Assembly: GCA_018434325.1 (NCBI GenBank)
Contig: JAHDPO010000026.1
Span: forward strand, 1 to 42,855
From: Clostridia bacterium
GTDB lineage: Bacteria > Bacillota > Peptococcia > DRI-13 > UBA5745
DNA length: 42,855 nt
Direction: 5' to 3'
Part shown: one piece after another, positions 11,363 to 38,236 of the stretch
Numbering within the stretch: position 1 is the stretch's first letter
How the letters are laid out: each line of letters opens with the position of its first letter
The notes under the pieces: generated by a model
The model's database searches: none
What the model was told of the DNA's origin: nothing
What the model saw: the letters and a program-made list of their open reading frames with translations, nothing else
Made by a program: the position numbers and the translations under genes

Positions 11363-13264
11363 TTATTGGCTGACTTGCTTGCTCATATGCTTATTATCTT
11401 TCTTCAGCCAAACATAGAGCGCGACCATCATGATGATGCCCACTATGCTGAGCAGCAGGTGGGGAATCAGGGCCATTATACCGCCGGCAAAGAATATCAA
11501 GCGCTGGACAATTCCGATATGGCGGTCCACATAGCCTTCCAAAGCAATGCCTATGCCGAAGATTCCTACAAAGGCCGTGATGAAAGCCAGGAAGATCGAT
11601 AAAGGGCTGCCTTGCCACAGCAGGACGGGATCATAGACAAAGATATACGGGATGATATATGCCAATATCCCATAATAGAAAGCCGTCCAGCCCGCTTTAT
11701 TGGGGTCAGTGCCGGCCAGCCCGGCGGCAGCATAAGCCGTTAAGGCTACCGGCGGTGTGATGCAGCTGATGACGCTGAAATAAAAGATAAAGAAATGGGC
11801 GGAAATCGGGGCAATGCCCAGCTTGATCAAGGGCGGCGCCAGCAAAGAGGCCGAAAGGATATACACGGCAGTGGCAGGCATACCCATGCCCAAAACCAGG
11901 CTGGCCAGCATGGCCATGATCAGACCCAGCATCTTTGAACCGCCGGATAAGGCAATGACAGAGCTGGAAAATTTCACGCCCAGGCCGGTGAGAGCCAGGG
12001 TGCCTACAATCAGCCCGGCAGCGGCGCAGGCCACGGCGATGGGAATGGATTCCTTGGCGCCGTCCAGCAGGGTCTTGATTACCTTATCCTTGTTTAAGCG
12101 GGTATCCTTTTTGAACGTGGATACGATAACCAATAAAACGATGGACCAAAATACAGCCTTTGACGCCGACCATTTCATCATCAGAAAAGCTACCAGACCC
12201 ACGATGGGGATCAGCAAATGCCAGCCGGCAGCCATCACCTTGCCTAAAACCGGCAGAGAAGCCTTATCCTCCCCCACCAGTCCCTGCTTCACCGCTTCCA
12301 GATCCACAATGACAAAGATGGAGAGATAAAACAGCACTGAGGGAATAATGGCCGCCAAAACTACCTGGCCGTAGCTCATGGACAGATACTCCGCCATGAT
12401 AAAAGCGGCGGCTCCCATTACCGGGGGCATCAAGATGCCGCCGGCAGAAGCGATGGCGCAAATAGCCGAAGCCAGGTTGGGGGAAAAGCCGCCCCGTTTC
12501 ATCAGAGGGATGGTGAAGGTGCCTGTCGTCACTACATTGGCAATGGGGGAGCCGGAGATCATGCCCATTAACGCACTGGCCATAACCCCGGTTTTAGCAG
12601 TGCCGCCCCTGTATTTACCGGCCAGGGAATAGGTAGCATCAATGAAAAACTGACCGCCGCCGGTGGCATTCAATACGCTGCCAAAGACGACGAATAAGAC
12701 GATCAGCGAAGCCGAAACCCCTAGAGGAACGCCGAAAATCCCCTCGGCAGTGGAAGAAAAGAAAGAAATGATCCGGGTGACGCTATAGCCTCGATGAGCC
12801 AGGCCGCCGGGCAGAAATTTACCGAAATAACAATACAGCACCATTAGCGCTGCAATGCCTGCCAACGCATTGCCGGCAGTACGTCTGGCCCCTTCCAAAA
12901 CGGCCAAAATCAGCACAGCACCAAAAAACAGATCCAGCATGCCGGGATCGCCTACCCGCATGGTTTGCCGGGGCCAGGTGAAAAAGAGATACAGGCAGGC
13001 CGCCAGCACCAAACTGCCCAGCAGGATATCGTACCAGGGTATTTTCTTATATTCTTTATGGGCTGCCCCATACAAAAATATGGCCGGCACCAGCATAAAC
13101 AGAAGATGCAAAGAACGTTGGGACATGGTGGACAACAAACCGAAGCCGCCGGTATAAATATGGAAGACGGAACCGGCAATCATCAGCAGGCTGACAGCCT
13201 TGCCAATCATTCCTGCCGGCATTCTCCGGTTGGTCGCCGGTTTAACAGGCTCATTTTTCATCAT
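11363..13264 (-). CDS. TRAP transporter fused permease (DctQ-DctM type, TAXI partner)
   Basis: The protein has 633 residues with many membrane segments. It is a fusion of the small and large TRAP permease subunits, as in the TAXI group. Signature stretches include GGQFFIDATYSLAGKYRGG, SGSPIANVVTTGTFTIPLM and GMGMPATAVYILSASLLAPP. It imports an organic acid or similar solute using an ion gradient, together with the binding protein encoded 11 bases upstream. Its position after the hydroxylase genes suggests that the transported solute feeds that enzyme. Confidence 0.95.
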   Translation of the reverse strand: MMKNEPVKPATNRRMPAGMIGKAVSLLMIAGSVFHIYTGGFGLLSTMSQRSLHLLFMLVPAIFLYGAAHKEYKKIPWYDILLGSLVLAACLYLFFTWPRQTMRVGDPGMLDLFFGAVLILAVLEGARRTAGNALAGIAALMVLYCYFGKFLPGGLAHRGYSVTRIISFFSSTAEGIFGVPLGVSASLIVLFVVFGSVLNATGGGQFFIDATYSLAGKYRGGTAKTGVMASALMGMISGSPIANVVTTGTFTIPLMKRGGFSPNLASAICAIASAGGILMPPVMGAAAFIMAEYLSMSYGQVVLAAIIPSVLFYLSIFVIVDLEAVKQGLVGEDKASLPVLGKVMAAGWHLLIPIVGLVAFLMMKWSASKAVFWSIVLLVIVSTFKKDTRLNKDKVIKTLLDGAKESIPIAVACAAAGLIVGTLALTGLGVKFSSSVIALSGGSKMLGLIMAMLASLVLGMGMPATAVYILSASLLAPPLIKLGIAPISAHFFIFYFSVISCITPPVALTAYAAAGLAGTDPNKAGWTAFYYGILAYIIPYIFVYDPVLLWQGSPLSIFLAFITAFVGIFGIGIALEGYVDRHIGIVQRLIFFAGGIMALIPHLLLSIVGIIMMVALYVWLKKDNKHMSKQVSQ

Positions 13265-13275
13265 AGACTCTCTCC

Positions 13276-14328
13276 CTATTTAGCGCCGGCTGCTCCCGCT
13301 TCTTTGAAATAGCGCATGGCCCCGGGATGCATGGGGATCATTTCATTGACCGCCGTATCAAGCTTTATGGAGGCAGCCGAAGGATGAACTACATAAATAT
13401 CTTCAAGATTTTCAAAAACGGCCTTTGTCATTTGGTAAACCAACTCTTCATCTACATTGGCGTTGATCACGACTACGTTACTGCTGCCAATAGTCTTGAT
13501 ATCATGGTCTGTACCGTAGACGTCCTTCGGGATATCCACCGGATTATAATAAGGATATTTAGCCAGGAAAGGAGCTCTCTCGGCTTCATCCAGTTCAAGG
13601 AGCCGGAAAGCCACATTGGAGCCTTGAATATTTTTAATGGCAGGAGCCGGATGAGGAGCCTGGATGAAAGCGGCGTCAACATGGCCGTCGATCAGGGCCT
13701 GAACGCCTTCATCATAGGACATGTAATTGGCTTTGATATCTTCCATTGTAAAGTCGTAAATGGCAAAGAGATCGGGTAAAAGGCTCAAGCCGCCGCCGCC
13801 CTGGGGTCCCACGGCCACCTTCTTGCCTTTTAAATCGGCATAGGTCTTAATGGCTGAATCACCCTTCACTACCATATGGATGGTACCGGGGGCCACTCCG
13901 CCAAACATCATGCGCAAATCAGCATATTGGTTGCCTTGGAATATCCCGCTGCCTTCATAAGCGGCATAAGCCAGGTTGGCGTTAGTAATTCCGATATCGG
14001 AATCCCCCGCGCCTACCAGCTTGGGATTTTCCGTAGCGCCGCCGGTAACTTCGACTTTCGGTTCAATATTGCTGATGCACTTCTGGAAAACGTCGGCCAT
14101 GCCTACGCCGATGGGATAATAGGAGCCTCCCATGCTGGCGGTGGCAATGGAGATAAATTGCATTTTGGCAGATTCTTTCGGCTGTTCAGCCGCAGTCTCT
14201 GCCGGAGCAGCGGATGCAGGAGTAGTGGATGCAGGCGCTGAGGAGCCGGAGGTATTACCGCAAGCGGCCATCAGAGTCAATAAAGCAACAAGCAACATGA
14301 CAAGACCTAATTTCATCCCTTTTTTCAT
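13276..14328 (-). CDS. TAXI-family TRAP solute-binding lipoprotein
   Basis: The protein has 350 residues with a lipoprotein signal (LLTLMAAC, cleavage before Cys) and a Ser/Ala/Pro-rich linker. The TAXI domain shows ISIATASMGGSYYPIG, GATENPKLVGAGDSDIGI and KGKKVAVGPQGGG. It captures the substrate outside the membrane for the fused permease. I start at the ATG at 14328 with GGAGG upstream; 65 further codons of open frame overlap the [2Fe-2S] gene and look non-coding. The ligand cannot be read from the sequence; known TAXI proteins bind compounds such as glutamate or other carboxylates. Confidence 0.95.
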   Translation of the reverse strand: MKKGMKLGLVMLLVALLTLMAACGNTSGSSAPASTTPASAAPAETAAEQPKESAKMQFISIATASMGGSYYPIGVGMADVFQKCISNIEPKVEVTGGATENPKLVGAGDSDIGITNANLAYAAYEGSGIFQGNQYADLRMMFGGVAPGTIHMVVKGDSAIKTYADLKGKKVAVGPQGGGGLSLLPDLFAIYDFTMEDIKANYMSYDEGVQALIDGHVDAAFIQAPHPAPAIKNIQGSNVAFRLLELDEAERAPFLAKYPYYNPVDIPKDVYGTDHDIKTIGSSNVVVINANVDEELVYQMTKAVFENLEDIYVVHPSAASIKLDTAVNEMIPMHPGAMRYFKEAGAAGAK

Positions 14329-14342
14329 AAATACTTCCTCCC

Positions 14343-14837
14343 TTAATCTTTTTGATTTCTTATCTCCGCAGTATAAAGAACAGCTTCTATAATTTTTTGG
14401 TAACCGGTACAGCGGCAGAGATTGCCGGCCACGGCCCTTTTTATTTCTTCCGCAGTGGGCTGAGGGTTTTCCGCCAAAAGGCCGGCGGCGGTCATGATCA
14501 TTCCCGGGGTGCAAAAGCCGCATTGAACAGCACCCTTAGCCAGAAAAGCCTCCTGCAGATCCGACATTTTTCCTTCGGCTGCCAGGCCTTCCAGAGTCAC
14601 AATGGAGCTGCCGTCAGCCTCCACCGCCATAATAATACAAGAAACAACGGCTTTACCATCCAGCAATACCGTACAGGCCCCACAATCACCGACACCGCAT
14701 CCCTCCTTAACACTTTTCAGATTCAACCAATCCCGCAAGTAGTCCGCCAGCCGCAAATCCACCGGTACGGTATCTTCGCGGGCTACATTATTTACCAGAA
14801 GCTTGATTTTTCTGCTGTTTGCTTCTTTATGCTCCAT
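14343..14837 (-). CDS. [2Fe-2S] subunit of a molybdenum hydroxylase (XdhC/CoxS type)
   Basis: The protein has 164 residues. A ferredoxin-like cluster site (EGCGVGDCGACTVLLDGK) is followed by the second four-helix cluster site (QCGFCTPGMIM and NLCRCTGYQKI). All eight expected cysteines are present. It passes electrons from the molybdenum centre to the FAD subunit. The ATG at 14837 is behind AAGGAG; a GTG at 14861 is possible. It is flanked by the FAD subunit gene and the TAXI gene in one operon. Confidence 0.95.
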   Translation of the reverse strand: MEHKEANSRKIKLLVNNVAREDTVPVDLRLADYLRDWLNLKSVKEGCGVGDCGACTVLLDGKAVVSCIIMAVEADGSSIVTLEGLAAEGKMSDLQEAFLAKGAVQCGFCTPGMIMTAAGLLAENPQPTAEEIKRAVAGNLCRCTGYQKIIEAVLYTAEIRNQKD

Positions 14838-14871
14838 CAAATCCCCACTCCTTTTTGTCACCTTATACCGA

Positions 14872-15762
14872 TTAACTGAGACGGCTCAAAGCTTTTAGCA
14901 AAACCCGCTCCGTTAGAACCGGTATCGTTGCCAAACGGTATTCCCGGGAAGCCCGGCGGGAGCTTCTGGGGCTGCTCTCCTGGGCTGCCAGTACACCGGC
15001 TTGTGCAAAATGCTCTGCCGTCGCCTCTTTACCCAATAAGAATGCTTCTGCCTGCTTCATCCGCAGAGGTCTCTCTCCGGCGCCGCCTAAGGCGATCCTC
15101 ACCTGGCTGATCCGGCCATCTTCGAGCTCCAAGCTGGCGGCAGCGTTAATAATTGCTATATCCATTGCCTGCCTGGGCCCCAGCTTCATAAAAGCCGTTC
15201 CCCGTCCGGGCGCAAGGGGTAAAGTGATTTGGCGAATAATTTCGTCTGCCGCTAAAAAGGTTTTCCCGGCTTTTTGCCATAGGTCTTCAACAGGTATATG
15301 GCGGCTCCCCGACGGCGACCAAAGTTCTAGAAAAGCATCCAAAACCAGTAAGGGCGCAGCCGTATCGGCCGTAGGTGAAGCATTAGCCAGATTGCCCCCC
15401 AAGGTAGCCCGGTTTCTTACCTGCCGGGAACCCAGCTGGCAGGCAGCCTCCGGCAGCGCCGCCGCTTTTTCCTGCAATAGAGGATTGATTTCCAGCTGGT
15501 GGATGGAAGTTAAGGATCCGATGCAAATCTCGCCTTTCTTACCTTCCTCAGCAGCGGTCTCGGCTATGCCCTGCAATTCTGTCAAACCTTTTAAGTCCAC
15601 CAGATGAGCGCAGCTTTTCTTTCCTGTCCGCAAATCCACAGCTAAATCGGTGCCGCCGGCAAGAAACATAACCCCTGCTTCCGCTTTACATAATATTGCT
15701 GCCAGCTCCTCCCAAGAACCGGGCCGGCAATATTCATAGCCTTTGCCTCTTTGTTCAATCAC
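14872..15762 (-). CDS. FAD-binding subunit of the molybdenum hydroxylase (XdhB/CoxM type)
   Basis: The protein has 296 residues. It shows the CoxM/XdhB signatures: the FAD-binding AGGTDLAVDLRTGKK, and GSRQVRNRATLGGNLANASPTADTAAPLL. The C-terminal CO dehydrogenase flavoprotein domain follows. It starts with GTG at 15762, inside the last codons of the large subunit (8-base overlap), so translation is coupled. Confidence 0.95.
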   Translation of the reverse strand: MIEQRGKGYEYCRPGSWEELAAILCKAEAGVMFLAGGTDLAVDLRTGKKSCAHLVDLKGLTELQGIAETAAEEGKKGEICIGSLTSIHQLEINPLLQEKAAALPEAACQLGSRQVRNRATLGGNLANASPTADTAAPLLVLDAFLELWSPSGSRHIPVEDLWQKAGKTFLAADEIIRQITLPLAPGRGTAFMKLGPRQAMDIAIINAAASLELEDGRISQVRIALGGAGERPLRMKQAEAFLLGKEATAEHFAQAGVLAAQESSPRSSRRASREYRLATIPVLTERVLLKALSRLS

Positions 15763-18091
15763 GCAGTTCAGCCTCCTTCCCTTTTTGCCAGGAAAGCTTC
15801 AGATTTTCCGGCCGCAAAGGCGAGCGCCGCACCGCAATGCCTGTTACCTGATAAACGGCGTTGGCTACTGCGGGAGCTGCCGGGCCCACCGGAGCTTCGC
15901 CCAAGCCCTTTGCTCCATAAGGACCTAAGGGATGAGGCACCTCAACTAAAAGGGGAATAATTTCCGGCACATCTACAGCCGTAGGAATTTTGTAATCATG
16001 GAAGTTGCCATTCAGCAATCTGCCCTTTTCATCAAAAAGCATTTCTTCCATTAAACCGATGCCCAAGCCCATGGTAACGCCTCCCTCTATCTGCTGTCGG
16101 CAGTTTACGGGATTAATAGCTTTGCCCACATCACTGGCGGCATAGATTTTCAGCACCTTGAGCTCACCTGTGCGGGTATCTGTTTCCACCTCGGCAATAT
16201 CGGCGGCATACATCCAGAAGCTGGTGGGATTGGCCCCCTGCCCCGTCTCTTTATCCAGACCGGTGCCGCCCTTCATTCTGGAATGGCCTTTGCCGATGAT
16301 ATCGATGCCGCCCATTACGGCCTGATTGATCAGCTTACCGATGCTGAGACCCTCTCCCGTTTTGGGGTTAAGGACTTTGCCTTCACTGCTTTTGACCTCT
16401 TCAGGCCGGCAGCCGAAAACTTGAGCTCCGTATTCCTGTATCTGCCGCCAGGCATCCTTGGCCGCCTCCATTACCGCCGTGCCGGCATGGAAAGTGCCGC
16501 GGCTGGCGCTGGTGGTTCTGTCGTAGGGCGTGATAAAGGTGTCCGGATGCTGAACCCGGATTTTGCTTAAAGGAATACCGGTTTCCTCAGCTACCATCTG
16601 AGCAAAAATAGTTGAAGAGCCTTGACCCATATCTACATTGCTGACGTTGACCTCTACGGAGCCTTCCTCCATGATCCGTACGGTAGCGCTGGAACCGTAG
16701 TGGCGCATGCTGCCCTTCCAGGAACAGGCCACTCCTAAACTGCGGTAGCGGCCATTGCCTAAATCCACAGGCGCGGGCCTTTGTCCCGGCTGCCAGCCGG
16801 CTGCCTCGGCTACGGCCTCCAGGCAACCTTTCATGCCCACGGCCTGCATCTCCTCACCGGTATGGCTGATATCGCCCGTTTGAATCACATTATCCAGGCG
16901 AAACTGCAAAGGATCTATCCCTGCTTTCTCCGCCAGCCGGTCCGTATGCAGCTCATAAGCCCAAGTAACATGGGGTATGCCGTAGCCTCTGAAGGCTGTG
17001 GCCACCGGCAAATTGGTATATACCGAGTAAGCGTCTAATTTCACATTGTCGATCTTATAAGGGCCGGCGAAGGTAAACCCGGAATTCCTGGCCACCAAAG
17101 GCCCACAATCGGCATAAGCCCCCGTATCCCAATAAGCAGCCATCTGCCGGGCCGTGACCTTGCCCTCCTTAACGCCGGATTTGATTTTGATTTTACAGCC
17201 GTGATTGGTGATGCGGAGAAATTCCTCTTCCCGGGACAACAAAAGCCGTACCGGCCGGTGGTCGGTTTTCTGGGCCAGGGCTACTACCAAGGGCTCTAAG
17301 CTGGGATAAATTTTGGAGCCGAAGCCGCCTCCCAAAGTAGGTATGGTGACCCGCACCTGATTCCAGGATAAGCCGAAGAGAGCCGCCAGATTCCTTTGCA
17401 GCACATAAGGCGACTGGTTGCAGGTCCAGATATGAAGCGTACCCTCTCTCTCCATTTGGGCCACTACTCCGTAAGGCTCGATACAGCAATGATGATTACG
17501 GGGCACTTCATACTCTTCCTCAAGAACAAAATCTGCTTCACTAAAGGCTTTTTCCACATCTCCTTTACGCAGCTTGAAATGGCTGCAAATGTTGCTGCCC
17601 GCCACAGGCATAGCGGTGATCTCCCGCTCATAATCCATCAGATTTTCATGAAGCAGAGGCACAGTCTTTTTGTCCTCTTTCATGCCCGCCGCTTCTTCAG
17701 GATCAAATACTGCGATCGTTTCTTCATACTCCACCCGGATTTTCGTTAAGGCAAGCATTGCCGCCGCCTTATTTATGGCCGCTACCGCCGCCACAGGCTC
17801 TCCTGCATAACGCACTCTATCCCTGGCCAGCACCGGCCGATCCTGGACAGTAGTACCGTACAACCCATCCACGTCCCGGCCGGTAACTACGGCTTTGACG
17901 CCTTCCACCTGCCAGACGCCGCTAACATCGATAGCAAGAATTTTGGCGCTGGCATAGGGACTGGTCAATACGGCAGCTTCCAGAAGATTTGCATATTCCA
18001 AATCCTGCACATACTCGGCCTTGCCCAATACTTTAATATCGCCGTCAATGCGTAAAGGAGCTTCGCCGACGCCTTCATGCTTATATGTCAT
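15755..18091 (-). CDS. Molybdopterin-binding large subunit of a xanthine dehydrogenase-family hydroxylase
   Basis: The protein has 778 residues, the usual length. The N-terminal a/b hammerhead domain is followed by the molybdenum-binding domains with TLGGGFGSKIYPSLEPLV, ATAFRGYGIPHVTWAYE, MGQGSSTIFAQMVAEETGI and KGLGEAPVGPAAPAVANAVY. The Glu of GLGE is the catalytic base in this family. The substrate is not decidable: the FRGYGIPH loop differs from the FRGFGGPQ I associate with classical xanthine dehydrogenases, so an N-heterocycle or aldehyde is as likely as a purine. The ATG at 18091 has a strong GGAGGTG, and a terminator hairpin ends only about ten bases before that site. Confidence 0.93.
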   Translation of the reverse strand: MTYKHEGVGEAPLRIDGDIKVLGKAEYVQDLEYANLLEAAVLTSPYASAKILAIDVSGVWQVEGVKAVVTGRDVDGLYGTTVQDRPVLARDRVRYAGEPVAAVAAINKAAAMLALTKIRVEYEETIAVFDPEEAAGMKEDKKTVPLLHENLMDYEREITAMPVAGSNICSHFKLRKGDVEKAFSEADFVLEEEYEVPRNHHCCIEPYGVVAQMEREGTLHIWTCNQSPYVLQRNLAALFGLSWNQVRVTIPTLGGGFGSKIYPSLEPLVVALAQKTDHRPVRLLLSREEEFLRITNHGCKIKIKSGVKEGKVTARQMAAYWDTGAYADCGPLVARNSGFTFAGPYKIDNVKLDAYSVYTNLPVATAFRGYGIPHVTWAYELHTDRLAEKAGIDPLQFRLDNVIQTGDISHTGEEMQAVGMKGCLEAVAEAAGWQPGQRPAPVDLGNGRYRSLGVACSWKGSMRHYGSSATVRIMEEGSVEVNVSNVDMGQGSSTIFAQMVAEETGIPLSKIRVQHPDTFITPYDRTTSASRGTFHAGTAVMEAAKDAWRQIQEYGAQVFGCRPEEVKSSEGKVLNPKTGEGLSIGKLINQAVMGGIDIIGKGHSRMKGGTGLDKETGQGANPTSFWMYAADIAEVETDTRTGELKVLKIYAASDVGKAINPVNCRQQIEGGVTMGLGIGLMEEMLFDEKGRLLNGNFHDYKIPTAVDVPEIIPLLVEVPHPLGPYGAKGLGEAPVGPAAPAVANAVYQVTGIAVRRSPLRPENLKLSWQKGKEAELRD

Positions 18092-18183: not shown

Positions 18184-18747
18184 TTATGAATAACCTAACT
18201 TTTCGCTATACTTAATTGCTCTTGATATGATTTCCGCCACACTGCGGGAGTCCAAGGCCCGGGGAATTACCACCATCTTTTTTTTGTGACCTTCGTCTTT
18301 GATATATGGTGCAATCTCCTCCGGTAAAACGAACCAATCCACGTTCATTACGGCCATCATATCCTGGGTGCCGGTGCTAAAACGGTAATTTCTTACTCCT
18401 ACATTGACCAGCTGACCTAAAAGATCCGCCGAATCCCACACATGACCGCCGATGACTCCCAGATGGCTGCCTTCCGGCAGCATCAAAACCCGCTTGATCC
18501 CCTGGGGCATAGGAAAGAGTTGGGCAGGAATAATCCGTTCCGTCTCAATGGACTTGTTTAACTGATGAAAAACAATTCCCATAGTGTAGACTATATAAAG
18601 ATCGTAGTGCTTTGCCAAAGCCTGCTTCGTATCGCAAGCTTCCACTACTGCCAGATCCTTTAAGATCCCTCCTACATAGCGCTGCAGCATGGTGCATATT
18701 TCCGGCCGCAGGCTGACTGCCGCCACTGAAAGGCGTTTGATGGCCAT
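18184..18747 (-). CDS. Unknown cytoplasmic protein upstream of the hydroxylase operon
   Basis: The protein has 187 residues from the ATG at 18747. No membrane segment or helix-turn-helix is visible. The sequence alternates hydrophobic beta strands and helices (DLYIVYTMGIVFHQ, KRVLMLPEGSHLGVIGGHVWDS, MAVMNVDWFVLPEEIAPYI), which suggests a Rossmann-like sensor domain such as those at the N-terminus of some regulators. I cannot assign a family. The frame is open for 17 codons more, but those lie inside the structured RNA described next. A strong terminator separates it from the hydroxylase genes. A link to their control is only an inference from position. Confidence 0.65.
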   Translation of the reverse strand: MAIKRLSVAAVSLRPEICTMLQRYVGGILKDLAVVEACDTKQALAKHYDLYIVYTMGIVFHQLNKSIETERIIPAQLFPMPQGIKRVLMLPEGSHLGVIGGHVWDSADLLGQLVNVGVRNYRFSTGTQDMMAVMNVDWFVLPEEIAPYIKDEGHKKKMVVIPRALDSRSVAEIISRAIKYSEKLGYS

Positions 18748-18754
18748 CACTCCC

Positions 18755-18930
18755 TTCTTAGCGGTAATTTTTCCGTCATACATCTGCGCCCTGAACATCT
18801 AAAGATAGCAGATTGACTCCCAGGAGCTGCGTTGACTTCCTCCATCTGTTCAGTCACGTACAATGTAGTACGCTCCTTCACATCTGTCGTTGCCGCCTTG
18901 TCTGACGGAAAAAGTTCCTCGCTAAACCTG
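18755..18930 (-). ncRNA. Structured leader RNA, possibly the raiA motif
   Basis: On the minus strand TTTTTCCGTCA (18913-18903) is perfectly complementary to TGACGGAAAAA (18778-18768), forming an 11-bp closing stem around about 125 bases. Inside are CGTAC/GTACG, GACT/AGTC, CTCC/GGAG and ATCTGC/GCAGAT stems, the last with an inner ATCT/AGAT. The unlikely open frame here has no ribosome site. From memory the sequence resembles the raiA-motif RNA of Bacillota; I could not verify this, and no raiA gene is visible. It lies just upstream of the unknown gene starting at 18747 and just downstream of the priA terminator. Confidence 0.6.
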
Positions 18931-18961
18931 TCCCTGATCCTCCAGCTTGGCAAAATGGGCT

Positions 18962-18996
18962 GAAAAATAGGAACCTTGAAATAATCAGGTCCCTAT
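18962..18996 (-). terminator. Terminator of the yicC-priA operon
   Basis: On the minus strand ATAGGGACCT pairs with AGGTTCCTAT (one G-U pair) around a ten-base loop, followed by a T run. It lies about 65 bases past the stop of priA. Confidence 0.75.
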
Positions 18997-19060
18997 CTAA
19001 CCCACGTTAATAATATATTTGACAAAAGTATCGAAATTCCTGCCTTGTCCTAGTAAAACA

Positions 19061-21319
19061 CTATAATAAACTCTTCGATTCCATATCCAAAATTATCCTG
19101 GGCTCCTCGGGCCAAGCTGCCGCTAACTCCTTAACACAGCCCAGGCAATGGGCCAAGGGCGCCCAGTTGGGGGCCAGCAGGATCAGATGCCAGCGCCAGC
19201 GGTCTTTGATTTTCTCTAAAGGCGCTTTAGCAGGGCCCAGCCAGGTAATGGCCTCCGCCTCCCCCGCCGGCAGGCTTTGGCGGCAGCGAGCCAGGATTTC
19301 TTCCAGCCGCTCTCTCACCTTCTCCTCTTGTAAGCCCGTCACTAATATTCTGGCAATTTTCTTTAAAGGCGGATAATCCAGGACTTGACGAAGAGCGATC
19401 TCGTTGCGGTAAAACCCCATGTAATCGTGATCCTCAACCAGCTTAAACACTGGGTTTTCCGGGTAAAAAGTCTGCACCATCACTTCGCCGGGCCGCTGGC
19501 CCCGGCCTGCCCGGCCGGCAGTCTGCAGGATCAGCTGAAAGGCCCGTTCACTGCTTTGATAATCCGGCAAATTGATAATACCGTCTATATGGAGCACAGC
19601 GGACAAGGTTACCTTGGGGAAGTCAAAGCCTTTGGCTACCATTTGGGTGCCTACCAGCACGTCGGCCTTGCCTTCCTGGAAAGCCTTCAAAATCTCCATA
19701 TGGCTGCCGGCCCGGCCGGTGCTGTCCATGTCCAGGCGCAGAACCGCCAGTTCCGGTATTTCCTTGGTCAGATAATCCACCACCCGCTGCGTACCGGTAC
19801 CCATATATTGCAGCATAGTGCTGCCGCAATGGCTGCAAGCCTGCCACATCGTGCTTTGGTAATCGCAGTAATGGCAGAGCAGACGGCCGGAAAGCCTGTC
19901 TCCTCCCCTAACCGGCTGGCCCTCGGGACGGTGATAGGTTAACGGAATGCTGCACCTGGGGCACTCCAGGCTTTTGCCGCAGTCCCTACATAAAACATAA
20001 GTATGAAAACCCCGGCGGTTCATCAGAAGAATAGCCTGCTCGCCCTTGGCCTTGCGGTCCCGCAAAGCCTCCAGCAAGGGCCGGCTGACGGGATAGGGGT
20101 GACCTTCCTTCATCTCTTTATTCATGTTGATCCATTGAATGGCAGGCATGGCTCTGCCCTCTACCCGTTCCGGCAAAGTCAAAAGCTGTATCCGACCCTT
20201 TTCCGAGCGGTAAAGGCTTTCCAGATCCGGCGTAGCCGAGCCCCGCACCAGCGGAACCTGCCATAGCCTGGCCAGAGTCTCCGCGGTTTTTCTGGCGTCG
20301 TAGCGGGGCTCCGGTTCATTTTGCTTATACGTGTGCTCATGCTCTTCGTCTATAATAATCAGCCCCAGGCCGGCAACCGGCGCAAATAAGGCCGACCGGG
20401 GCCCGATGATCAGCTTAACTTCCCCCTGCCGGATTCTTTCCCATTCGGCAAACCGCTGACTGGGCGTTAAATTGCTGTGGAGAATGGCCACCCGGCCCTC
20501 AAACCACTGCCGGGCTTTGGCCGCCAGCTGAGGCACCAGGCTGATCTCCGGCACCAGATAAATGGTTTGCCTGCCTTTTGCGGCGGCGGTGGCCGCCAGT
20601 CGCAGATAAACCTCGGTTTTACCGCTGCCGGTAACGCCAAAAAGCAAATATTGGTTTCTCGTCCCTTCATCGATATCTCTTTTTATGGTATCAAAGGCTT
20701 GGTGCTGGGCCGGCGATAAGTCCCTGCTGAGACTGGCCTCCATCGTAACGGCTAAGGCTGCCTTCTGAGGCCCTTTGCGGATGTGGCGGAAGCTCTCTTC
20801 CTTTCGCAAATAACCGGCCTGAAACCACTTCTCTGCCTGCTCTGCCGCCTGCTTATTCCAGCGCTGGCCAATCCTTTGCTGCGACATGCCCCGGCTGCCG
20901 GCTTTAACTAAAGCAGTCCAGAGAAACTGCCAGGCCGGGTCCAGAAAAAGAGCCGTCTCGGTCTGAGCTTGGGACTCTGCAAAATAACGAACCTCCTCAA
21001 CCGGCCGCATTGCCGGCGGCAGAAATAAAGCGGCGGCCCGGTTGAGCGGACAAATATAGTAGCGGGCCAGCCAGCGGGCCAAAGCCAGCGCTTGCCTGCC
21101 AACTACAGGATAGGGGAAGATGGCCTCCCCCAGCTCCTGGATTTTAAATTTCTCTTCCCGCCGCCGGCGCAGCCGCAGCACCAGGGCCTCCTCTCTGCGT
21201 CCCCGGACTTTAACGGAAAATAACATACCGGGAAGGCATAATTGACCTTCCCGGATAGCGTATGTCAGTATTAATTCTTTTGCGGATACCGGATTAAGTA
21301 TCAATACGACAGCAAACAT
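19061..21319 (-). CDS. priA: Primosomal protein N' (replication restart helicase PriA)
   Basis: The protein has 752 residues. It has an N-terminal DNA-binding domain, a helicase core with Walker A GVTGSGKTEVY (about 228-238) and Walker B IIIDEEHEHTYKQ (DEEH at about 324-327), a zinc-binding region with four CxxC pairs (CRDCGKSLECPRC, then CHYC and CSHC), and the helicase C domain with QTAGRAGRGQRPGEV. It loads the replicative helicase at stalled forks. The ATG at 21319 is behind GGGAG. It is the last gene of the housekeeping operon. Confidence 0.97.
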   Translation of the reverse strand: MFAVVLILNPVSAKELILTYAIREGQLCLPGMLFSVKVRGRREEALVLRLRRRREEKFKIQELGEAIFPYPVVGRQALALARWLARYYICPLNRAAALFLPPAMRPVEEVRYFAESQAQTETALFLDPAWQFLWTALVKAGSRGMSQQRIGQRWNKQAAEQAEKWFQAGYLRKEESFRHIRKGPQKAALAVTMEASLSRDLSPAQHQAFDTIKRDIDEGTRNQYLLFGVTGSGKTEVYLRLAATAAAKGRQTIYLVPEISLVPQLAAKARQWFEGRVAILHSNLTPSQRFAEWERIRQGEVKLIIGPRSALFAPVAGLGLIIIDEEHEHTYKQNEPEPRYDARKTAETLARLWQVPLVRGSATPDLESLYRSEKGRIQLLTLPERVEGRAMPAIQWINMNKEMKEGHPYPVSRPLLEALRDRKAKGEQAILLMNRRGFHTYVLCRDCGKSLECPRCSIPLTYHRPEGQPVRGGDRLSGRLLCHYCDYQSTMWQACSHCGSTMLQYMGTGTQRVVDYLTKEIPELAVLRLDMDSTGRAGSHMEILKAFQEGKADVLVGTQMVAKGFDFPKVTLSAVLHIDGIINLPDYQSSERAFQLILQTAGRAGRGQRPGEVMVQTFYPENPVFKLVEDHDYMGFYRNEIALRQVLDYPPLKKIARILVTGLQEEKVRERLEEILARCRQSLPAGEAEAITWLGPAKAPLEKIKDRWRWHLILLAPNWAPLAHCLGCVKELAAAWPEEPRIILDMESKSLL

Positions 21320-25932: not shown

Positions 25933-26077
25933 GCAAAATTGCAAGTTTAAAGTGTGCTGCCTATTCAAAATATGGTCTACTCTCTTGCAGATGCACTAGA
26001 TATAGCCAAATACGGTCAAAGGCAGTCAAATAGATTCCCCCAAACGGTGTTCTGACACTTTAAACTTGCAATTTTGC
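25933..26077. repeat. 145-bp element with perfect 23-bp terminal inverted repeats (MITE-like), copy A
   Basis: Positions 25933-25955 are the exact reverse complement of 26055-26077. The inside has no open frame. A related copy in opposite orientation lies at 37971-38105; the best inner block, 25966-26009 against 38029-38072 reversed, agrees at 33 of 44 bases. It sits between the yicC promoter region and the terminator of the Ca2+-ATPase gene, filling most of this 360-base gap. Non-autonomous transposon or IS-derived origin is an inference. Confidence 0.75.
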
Positions 26078-37935: not shown

Positions 37936-37970
37936 TAAAATTCTCCTCTCTGTGGGGCCACTGAAAATGC

Positions 37971-38105
37971 GCAAAATTTCAAGTTTAAAGTGTCGGGGAA
38001 ACATTTCGGTGGCTGTATTTGGCTGCGCTTGGTTATATCTAGTGTATCGTCAAGATGATAGGCCCCATTTTAGCTAAGCCACACACTTTAAACCTGCAAT
38101 TTTGC
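37971..38105. repeat. 135-bp element with 23-bp inverted repeats (MITE-like), copy B
   Basis: The arms 37971-37993 and 38083-38105 are inverted repeats with two mismatches and each differs from the copy A arm (25933-26077) at one base. The inside is related to copy A in reverse orientation. Outside the right arm CAAAAGGCTGA is shared with the fragment near position 148-159. It fills the 301-base gap upstream of the UPF0173 gene; only its ribosome site lies between. Confidence 0.72.
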
Positions 38106-38236
38106 TCAAAAGGCTGAGACTTGACCGACTTTTTTCAGCGGCCTCCCTCTCCATCGCTTTTTATCTACAGTATACTGCGGAAGCTATTTATATGGCACGC
38201 GACGTAAATTTCACAATAGCCCATCCACATATTATT

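Follow-up and report, generated by a model that had tools for sequence, protein, structure and literature searches.

ERIC elements have been in use for typing for decades. According to a 2024 review they still belong to the Enterobacteriaceae and Vibrionaceae alone (PMC10969869). TA at the termini and a TA duplication at the target have been described for these elements, the mechanism of their transfer being unexplained (PMC2759123), and in Yersinia they are reported to act on upstream mRNA by way of an RNase E site (PMC2229807, PMC10969869). Several other MITEs (Correia/NEMIS, RUP, YPAL and BOX) are likewise short, non-autonomous intergenic palindromes, a likeness drawn here by description (PMC2229807). 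REP/BIME sequences, which are moved by RAYT (Y1) transposases, also form intergenic hairpins with a plausible recognition of single-stranded DNA, but REPs measure 20 to 40 bp (PMC3733652) against about 127 bp for the element described below. Our search of the open-access literature found nothing on ERIC-like elements outside the gammaproteobacteria.

The DNA analysed here, which we call the window, is a stretch of 42,855 nucleotides from a Clostridia bacterium (GenBank assembly GCA_018434325.1, contig JAHDPO010000026.1). Between priA and the gene of a 187-residue protein it holds a structured stretch that is very likely one copy of a non-autonomous, mobile, palindromic and intergenic ERIC-like element, inserted after the split from the sister species (G004). 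Like ERIC (also IRU or RU-1) the element is multicopy and intergenic, with five copies in its own genome and 25 in another genome of the genus (G002), and it forms a long imperfect palindrome with a stable stem-loop. Leaving out a nested satellite hairpin, its length is that of ERIC (173 - 46 = 127 bp, by comparison with the unit in G005, another genome of the family). The central core has the form GGAGC.TAC-loop-GTA.GTGAC in both (18853-18876 in the window; GGAGCTTAC-ATAA-GTAAGTGAC in the E. coli ERIC), and 16 of the 18 fixed core letters are common, including the asymmetric GGAG/TGAC. RAGG and AACGC boxes are found near the same distances, and tandem copies at about 125-130 nt occur among the relatives of the window element.

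Differences are also apparent. Whereas ERIC is placed in the two families mentioned, the window element resides in Clostridia, with copies in other phyla as well; it carries a genus-specific nested hairpin, and its closing arms are of the TTTTTTCG./.CGAAAAA type. Neither TA termini nor a TA duplication at the target, as reported for ERIC, is seen here. The link to the E. coli ERIC is made by a covariance model and not by BLAST, which gave no match for the window core in E. coli. Pairwise alignment of the flanks exceeded all 2000 shuffles for 2 of 10 ERICs, and a matrix built on the flanks only scored ERICs at z -0.2 to 2.1, too weak to serve as proof of homology. Because the TA duplication is not seen and the flanks alone are weak evidence, the element is filed as an ERIC-like non-autonomous mobile element and not as an ERIC.

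The case for mobility comes from the comparison of filled and empty sites (Table 1). In the sister species the sequence runs from the end of priA through its terminator-like hairpin to ..GGATTAGG and, with nothing in between, on into AAGAAGGGAGTGATGG, the ribosome site and the start codon; no counterpart of window positions 18760-18932 (173 bp) is present there or in G005. Because of an additional GACAGG in the left flank, the edges of the insertion can be placed only to within a few bases. A second pair of sites is provided by a copy on another contig of the same genome (G000:C64), where in the sister species the stop codon is directly followed by GGAGGGATCCATG. Both insertions lie flush against a ribosome-binding site. 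Neither shows a clear target duplication: a TA duplication is absent at G000:C64 and the window site is ambiguous. The copies within the genome have diverged (76-79% identity), so it is the empty sites that argue for recent transposition. Short and non-coding, with terminal inverted repeats and with both filled and empty sites, the window element has the attributes of a MITE, and we are highly confident that the structured stretch in front of the 187-residue gene is a recently inserted small mobile hairpin.

Table 1. Features of the insertion and its surroundings (window coordinates; all on the minus strand).
Feature	Position	Strand	Basis and remarks
187-residue protein gene, downstream neighbour	18184..18747	-	Orthologs in G004 (95%) and G005 (67%)
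Ribosome-binding site AAGGGAG of the 187-residue gene, downstream flank	18750..18756	-	Sequence; conserved in G004
3' outer arm CGCTAA, abutting the ribosome-binding site	18758..18763	-	Fold
173-bp insertion, very likely a mobile element copy	18760..18932	-	BLAST against G004: flanks join directly; absent in G005 too; edges +/- a few bases
Closing stem, 3' arm	18768..18778	-	TGACGGAAAAA on minus strand; sequence and fold
Nested satellite hairpin (module B, 46 nt), 3' half of element	18781..18826	-	Missing from the otherwise colinear G005 unit
Covariance model R1 match, all 83 positions	18824..18905	-	53.0 bits, E 2.8e-13; window left out of training set
AACGCAG box, conserved internal loop, 3' side	18827..18833	-	RAC[GA] peak 19-21 nt 3' of GTGAC, outside the selecting pattern
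Central hairpin core GGAGCGTAC-TACATT-GTACGTGAC	18853..18876	-	Pattern also in own genome, relatives and other phyla
CAAGG box, conserved internal loop, 5' side	18896..18900	-	RAGG peak 23-25 nt 5' of GGAG, outside the selecting pattern
Closing stem, 5' arm	18903..18913	-	TTTTTCCGTCA on minus strand; sequence and fold
5' outer arm TTAGCG, outermost pairing	18920..18925	-	Fold; other family copies arranged alike
Terminator-like hairpin of priA (AGGGACCT..AGGTTCCTATTTTT), upstream flank	18963..18996	-	Conserved in G004 and G005
priA, upstream neighbour	19061..21319	-	TIGR00595, PriA domains

The location and the folding of the stretch agree with the initial annotation. It had placed the structure directly upstream of the 187-residue gene, and indeed this gene starts with the ATG at 18747 on the minus strand and the base of the stem lies against its ribosome-binding site. 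The exact 11-bp complementarity it described is present as well: the arms of this closing stem (18768-18778, TTTTTCCGTCA; 18903-18913, TGACGGAAAAA) have 124 bases between them and form part of a larger pair (18763-18782 and 18899-18918; 20 nt, 85% complementary). Folded as RNA, the minus strand of 18757-18927 reaches -56.4 kcal/mol (z -3.64, equalled by 1 of 200 dinucleotide shuffles), and folded as single-stranded DNA it yields a z of -5.43 with none of 200 shuffles as good. For a wider stretch of 251 nt the z is -2.34, against -1.04 for its plus strand. The structured stretch in its entirety coincides with the 173-bp insertion.

By the insertion the leader of the 187-residue gene is extended with 173 nt and a long stem is placed against the ribosome site; it is plausible that this influences translation or mRNA processing of the gene. 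An in-frame ATG at 18798, within the satellite hairpin, would lengthen the reading frame to 204 residues, but it is probably not used as a start because the conserved start is the one at 18747. The protein itself has no match in Pfam or NCBIfam and is present in only three of nine family genomes (G000, G004 and G005). A distant paralog (34% identity) is encoded in the same genome at G000:C44:12348-12839, and another in the sister species. Further downstream (11363-18091) are genes for a molybdenum hydroxylase (XdhA/XdhB-like) and a TAXI-type TRAP transporter.

A BLAST search with the region finds 12 matching places in its own genome. Full copies as recognised by the covariance model range from 3 to 25 in four other genomes of the genus, and G005 has five. 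The satellite hairpin (TCAATCTGCTATCCGTAGATACTAAGGGCGCAGATGT), which the ERIC-like element carries nested within it, has 62 matches dispersed over the genome, often in tandem. The two sides of its stem vary together: of 33 distinct copies, 31 have either CTGC/GCAG or CCGC/GCGG. One copy, in the rplF-rplR spacer (G000:C69:20435-20516; orthologs L267, L269, L275 and L284), lies antisense to the ribosomal genes and is shared by five species of two genera, with a double compensatory change at 16 of its 53 predicted pairs. We read this copy as maintained in place, either through selection or through correction of one arm by the other; mobility alone leaves its retention in five species unexplained. 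The window also contains a second, unrelated inverted-repeat family at 25933-26077 and 37968-38108, whose arms (GCAAAATTGCAAGTTTAAAGTGT) pair perfectly over 23 nt in one copy. These two copies share 72% identity over 159 bp in opposite orientation and look like another MITE.

The distribution outside the genus was surveyed with a core pattern (GGAGCGTAC-N2..24-GTACGTGAC) in one genome per species. It is found in at least 119 stretches, and among the matches listed are Clostridia, Bacillaceae, Porphyromonas, Alistipes, Desulfovibrio and Verrucomicrobia, as well as Coriobacteriia, Myxococcales, Alphaproteobacteria and enterobacteria. Although loops of 2 to 24 nt were permitted, all 142 distinct copies counted have a loop of 3 to 8 nt. 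Outside the selected core, boxes recur at fixed distances (RAGG 23-25 nt upstream, RAC[GA] 19-21 nt downstream), and several records hold two or three copies spaced 120-130 nt apart. Viral contigs yielded 11 matches to this pattern, and their loops vary widely, between 4 and 22 nt, as by chance; there is thus no sign of carriage by phages, and the scan serves as a useful null. Nor did BLAST of the element against plasmids yield a match. In Coriobacteriales and Sporosarcina the element is found just before the start of the 16S rRNA (L058, L125 and L126).

The training set of the covariance model (R1, 83 positions) left out both the own genus and known gammaproteobacteria. Under strict filters and a cutoff of E<=1e-4, giving counts that are lower bounds, the model recognises copies in 16 of 249 genomes (13 of 180 genera) of the own phylum, 18 of 198 genomes of the Porphyromonas phylum and 29 of 148 of the Desulfovibrio phylum, many of the matched genomes carrying several copies. 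Applied to the held-out enterobacteria, R1 gives 31.1 bits to the E. coli ERIC that lies between ybhJ and ybhI, and 35 to 55 bits to nine enterobacterial copies; its E-values are rough, and since the core common to ERIC was the selection criterion, this recognition is not fully independent. In Enterobacter cloacae only three copies are found; the model favours a GTAC core and consequently misses ERICs with other stems.

Covariation was evaluated on 91 copies of other taxa, none of them from the own genus or from recognised gammaproteobacteria. The score is 0.283, compared to 0.050-0.113 when the partners are slid by one to three columns, and changes on both sides occur in 534 cells against 262 in shuffles. 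When the search leaves the core stem free, it also covaries (CGTAC, TGTAC, TGTAT, CATAC and CGTAG with their complements), with GGAG and TGAC constant. The closing stem, whose conservation had been put forward as a check of the initial annotation, covaries among related copies. G-T pairs are as depleted in the stems as A-C pairs. This pattern lacks the signature of an RNA strand and gives no indication that selection acts on the RNA strand alone.

How far these results leave room for an RNA identity can be judged as follows. A conserved cis-regulatory leader RNA of the 187-residue gene, riboswitch-like or protein-binding, would fit the good RNA fold, the sense orientation and the stem base against the ribosome-binding site. 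In the own family, too, copies before genes are mostly in sense and most sense copies stop just before the ribosome-binding site. Nevertheless we regard it as very improbable: the sister species has the terminator and a 95% identical ortholog with no such structure in front of it, and this empty site, together with the absence in G005, largely refutes the idea. Moreover, copies precede the unrelated genes rpsP, rplN, rplX and an Orn/Lys/Arg decarboxylase gene (identities read from translated starts), and no Rfam family is recognised. A conserved RNA tied to the 187-residue gene or to the molybdenum-hydroxylase operon, as proposed in the initial annotation, is therefore not upheld. The size and the many stems could also suit a free-standing structured ncRNA, for instance the raiA motif, itself a multi-stem structure of similar size; this too we consider very improbable. 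No relevant Rfam covariance model matched: scanning the window at gathering scores gave nothing relevant, at E<=10 the sole row over 18650-19070 is a eukaryotic snoRNA (7.9 bits), and 14 loci with other family members returned tRNAs only. By these scans raiA or another known Rfam RNA is ruled out as the identity of the stretch. In addition, no sigma-70-like promoter was found inside the element, though this is a weak test. From the structured-leader reading as a whole, the structure, the position in the leader and the covarying stem remain, whereas the likeness to raiA and the link of a conserved RNA to one gene do not.

Two further possibilities accept part of the above. The element might be mobile by origin while its structure is now kept for an RNA role, such as RNase processing or mRNA stability as in the Yersinia ERIC. 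The compensatory changes at the orthologous rplF-rplR copy and the RNase E site reported in Yersinia argue for such a role, but the depletion of G-T pairs argues against it and the orientation to genes varies: among 60 intergenic copies of other taxa, 29 are tandem-antisense and 8 tandem-sense, and yet copies in the own family are mostly in sense. This count was made with a simple ORF caller, by which 21 of 82 copies lie inside a called ORF, some surely by error of the caller. On balance we find an RNA role rather unlikely. It is also somewhat unlikely, in our estimation, that copies outside the enterobacteria have merely converged on the ERIC core and share no descent with ERIC. Convergence would account for the weak flank alignments and for the missing BLAST match in E. 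coli, but leaves aside that core letters, box positions and the 127-bp length all agree with ERIC and that a held-out covariance model recognises ERICs.

Returning to the ERIC-like mobile element, the course of events is very likely as follows. After the split from the sister species, the element inserted into the gap that separates the priA terminator from the ribosome-binding site of the 187-residue gene; its 3' half contains the smaller satellite as a second hairpin. An enzyme encoded elsewhere would move it by recognising the hairpin DNA, perhaps while single-stranded at the replication fork. Once inserted, the hairpin becomes part of the 5' untranslated region, and as a by-product it may alter how the mRNA of the following gene is processed or translated.

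A replication-coupled mechanism is hinted at by the orientation of sites, which in four complete genomes is mostly opposite to the fork (38/52, 12/14, 6/6 and 9/9 sites; 8/13 in a fifth; the genomes include G135, G099, G556 and G635). Position 1 served as the origin here (a sequence check places dnaA there in three of the five genomes), and the directions of gene and fork are confounded. A neighbourhood of rRNA or tRNA genes was rejected as the cause of the orientation bias, as 24 regions scanned contain no tRNA and the regions checked no 16S start. We tentatively propose a single pan-bacterial family of mobile hairpins in which ERIC would be the branch found in enterobacteria; the family would share a GGAG/TGAC core with tandem G-A mismatches, would have spread across phyla by transfer or be very old, and would be moved by a replication-coupled mechanism on single-stranded DNA. 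We hold this to be possible rather than probable.

Summarizing, a strongly folded leader beside a gene can be a recent insertion, which should be kept in mind when such leaders are interpreted. A core with covarying stems across many phyla also provides a far larger comparative set for ERIC. Such a set permits a co-occurrence search for the mobilising enzyme and tests of function as RNA versus DNA. It likewise permits asking if ERIC-PCR bands obtained in other bacteria can have true targets.
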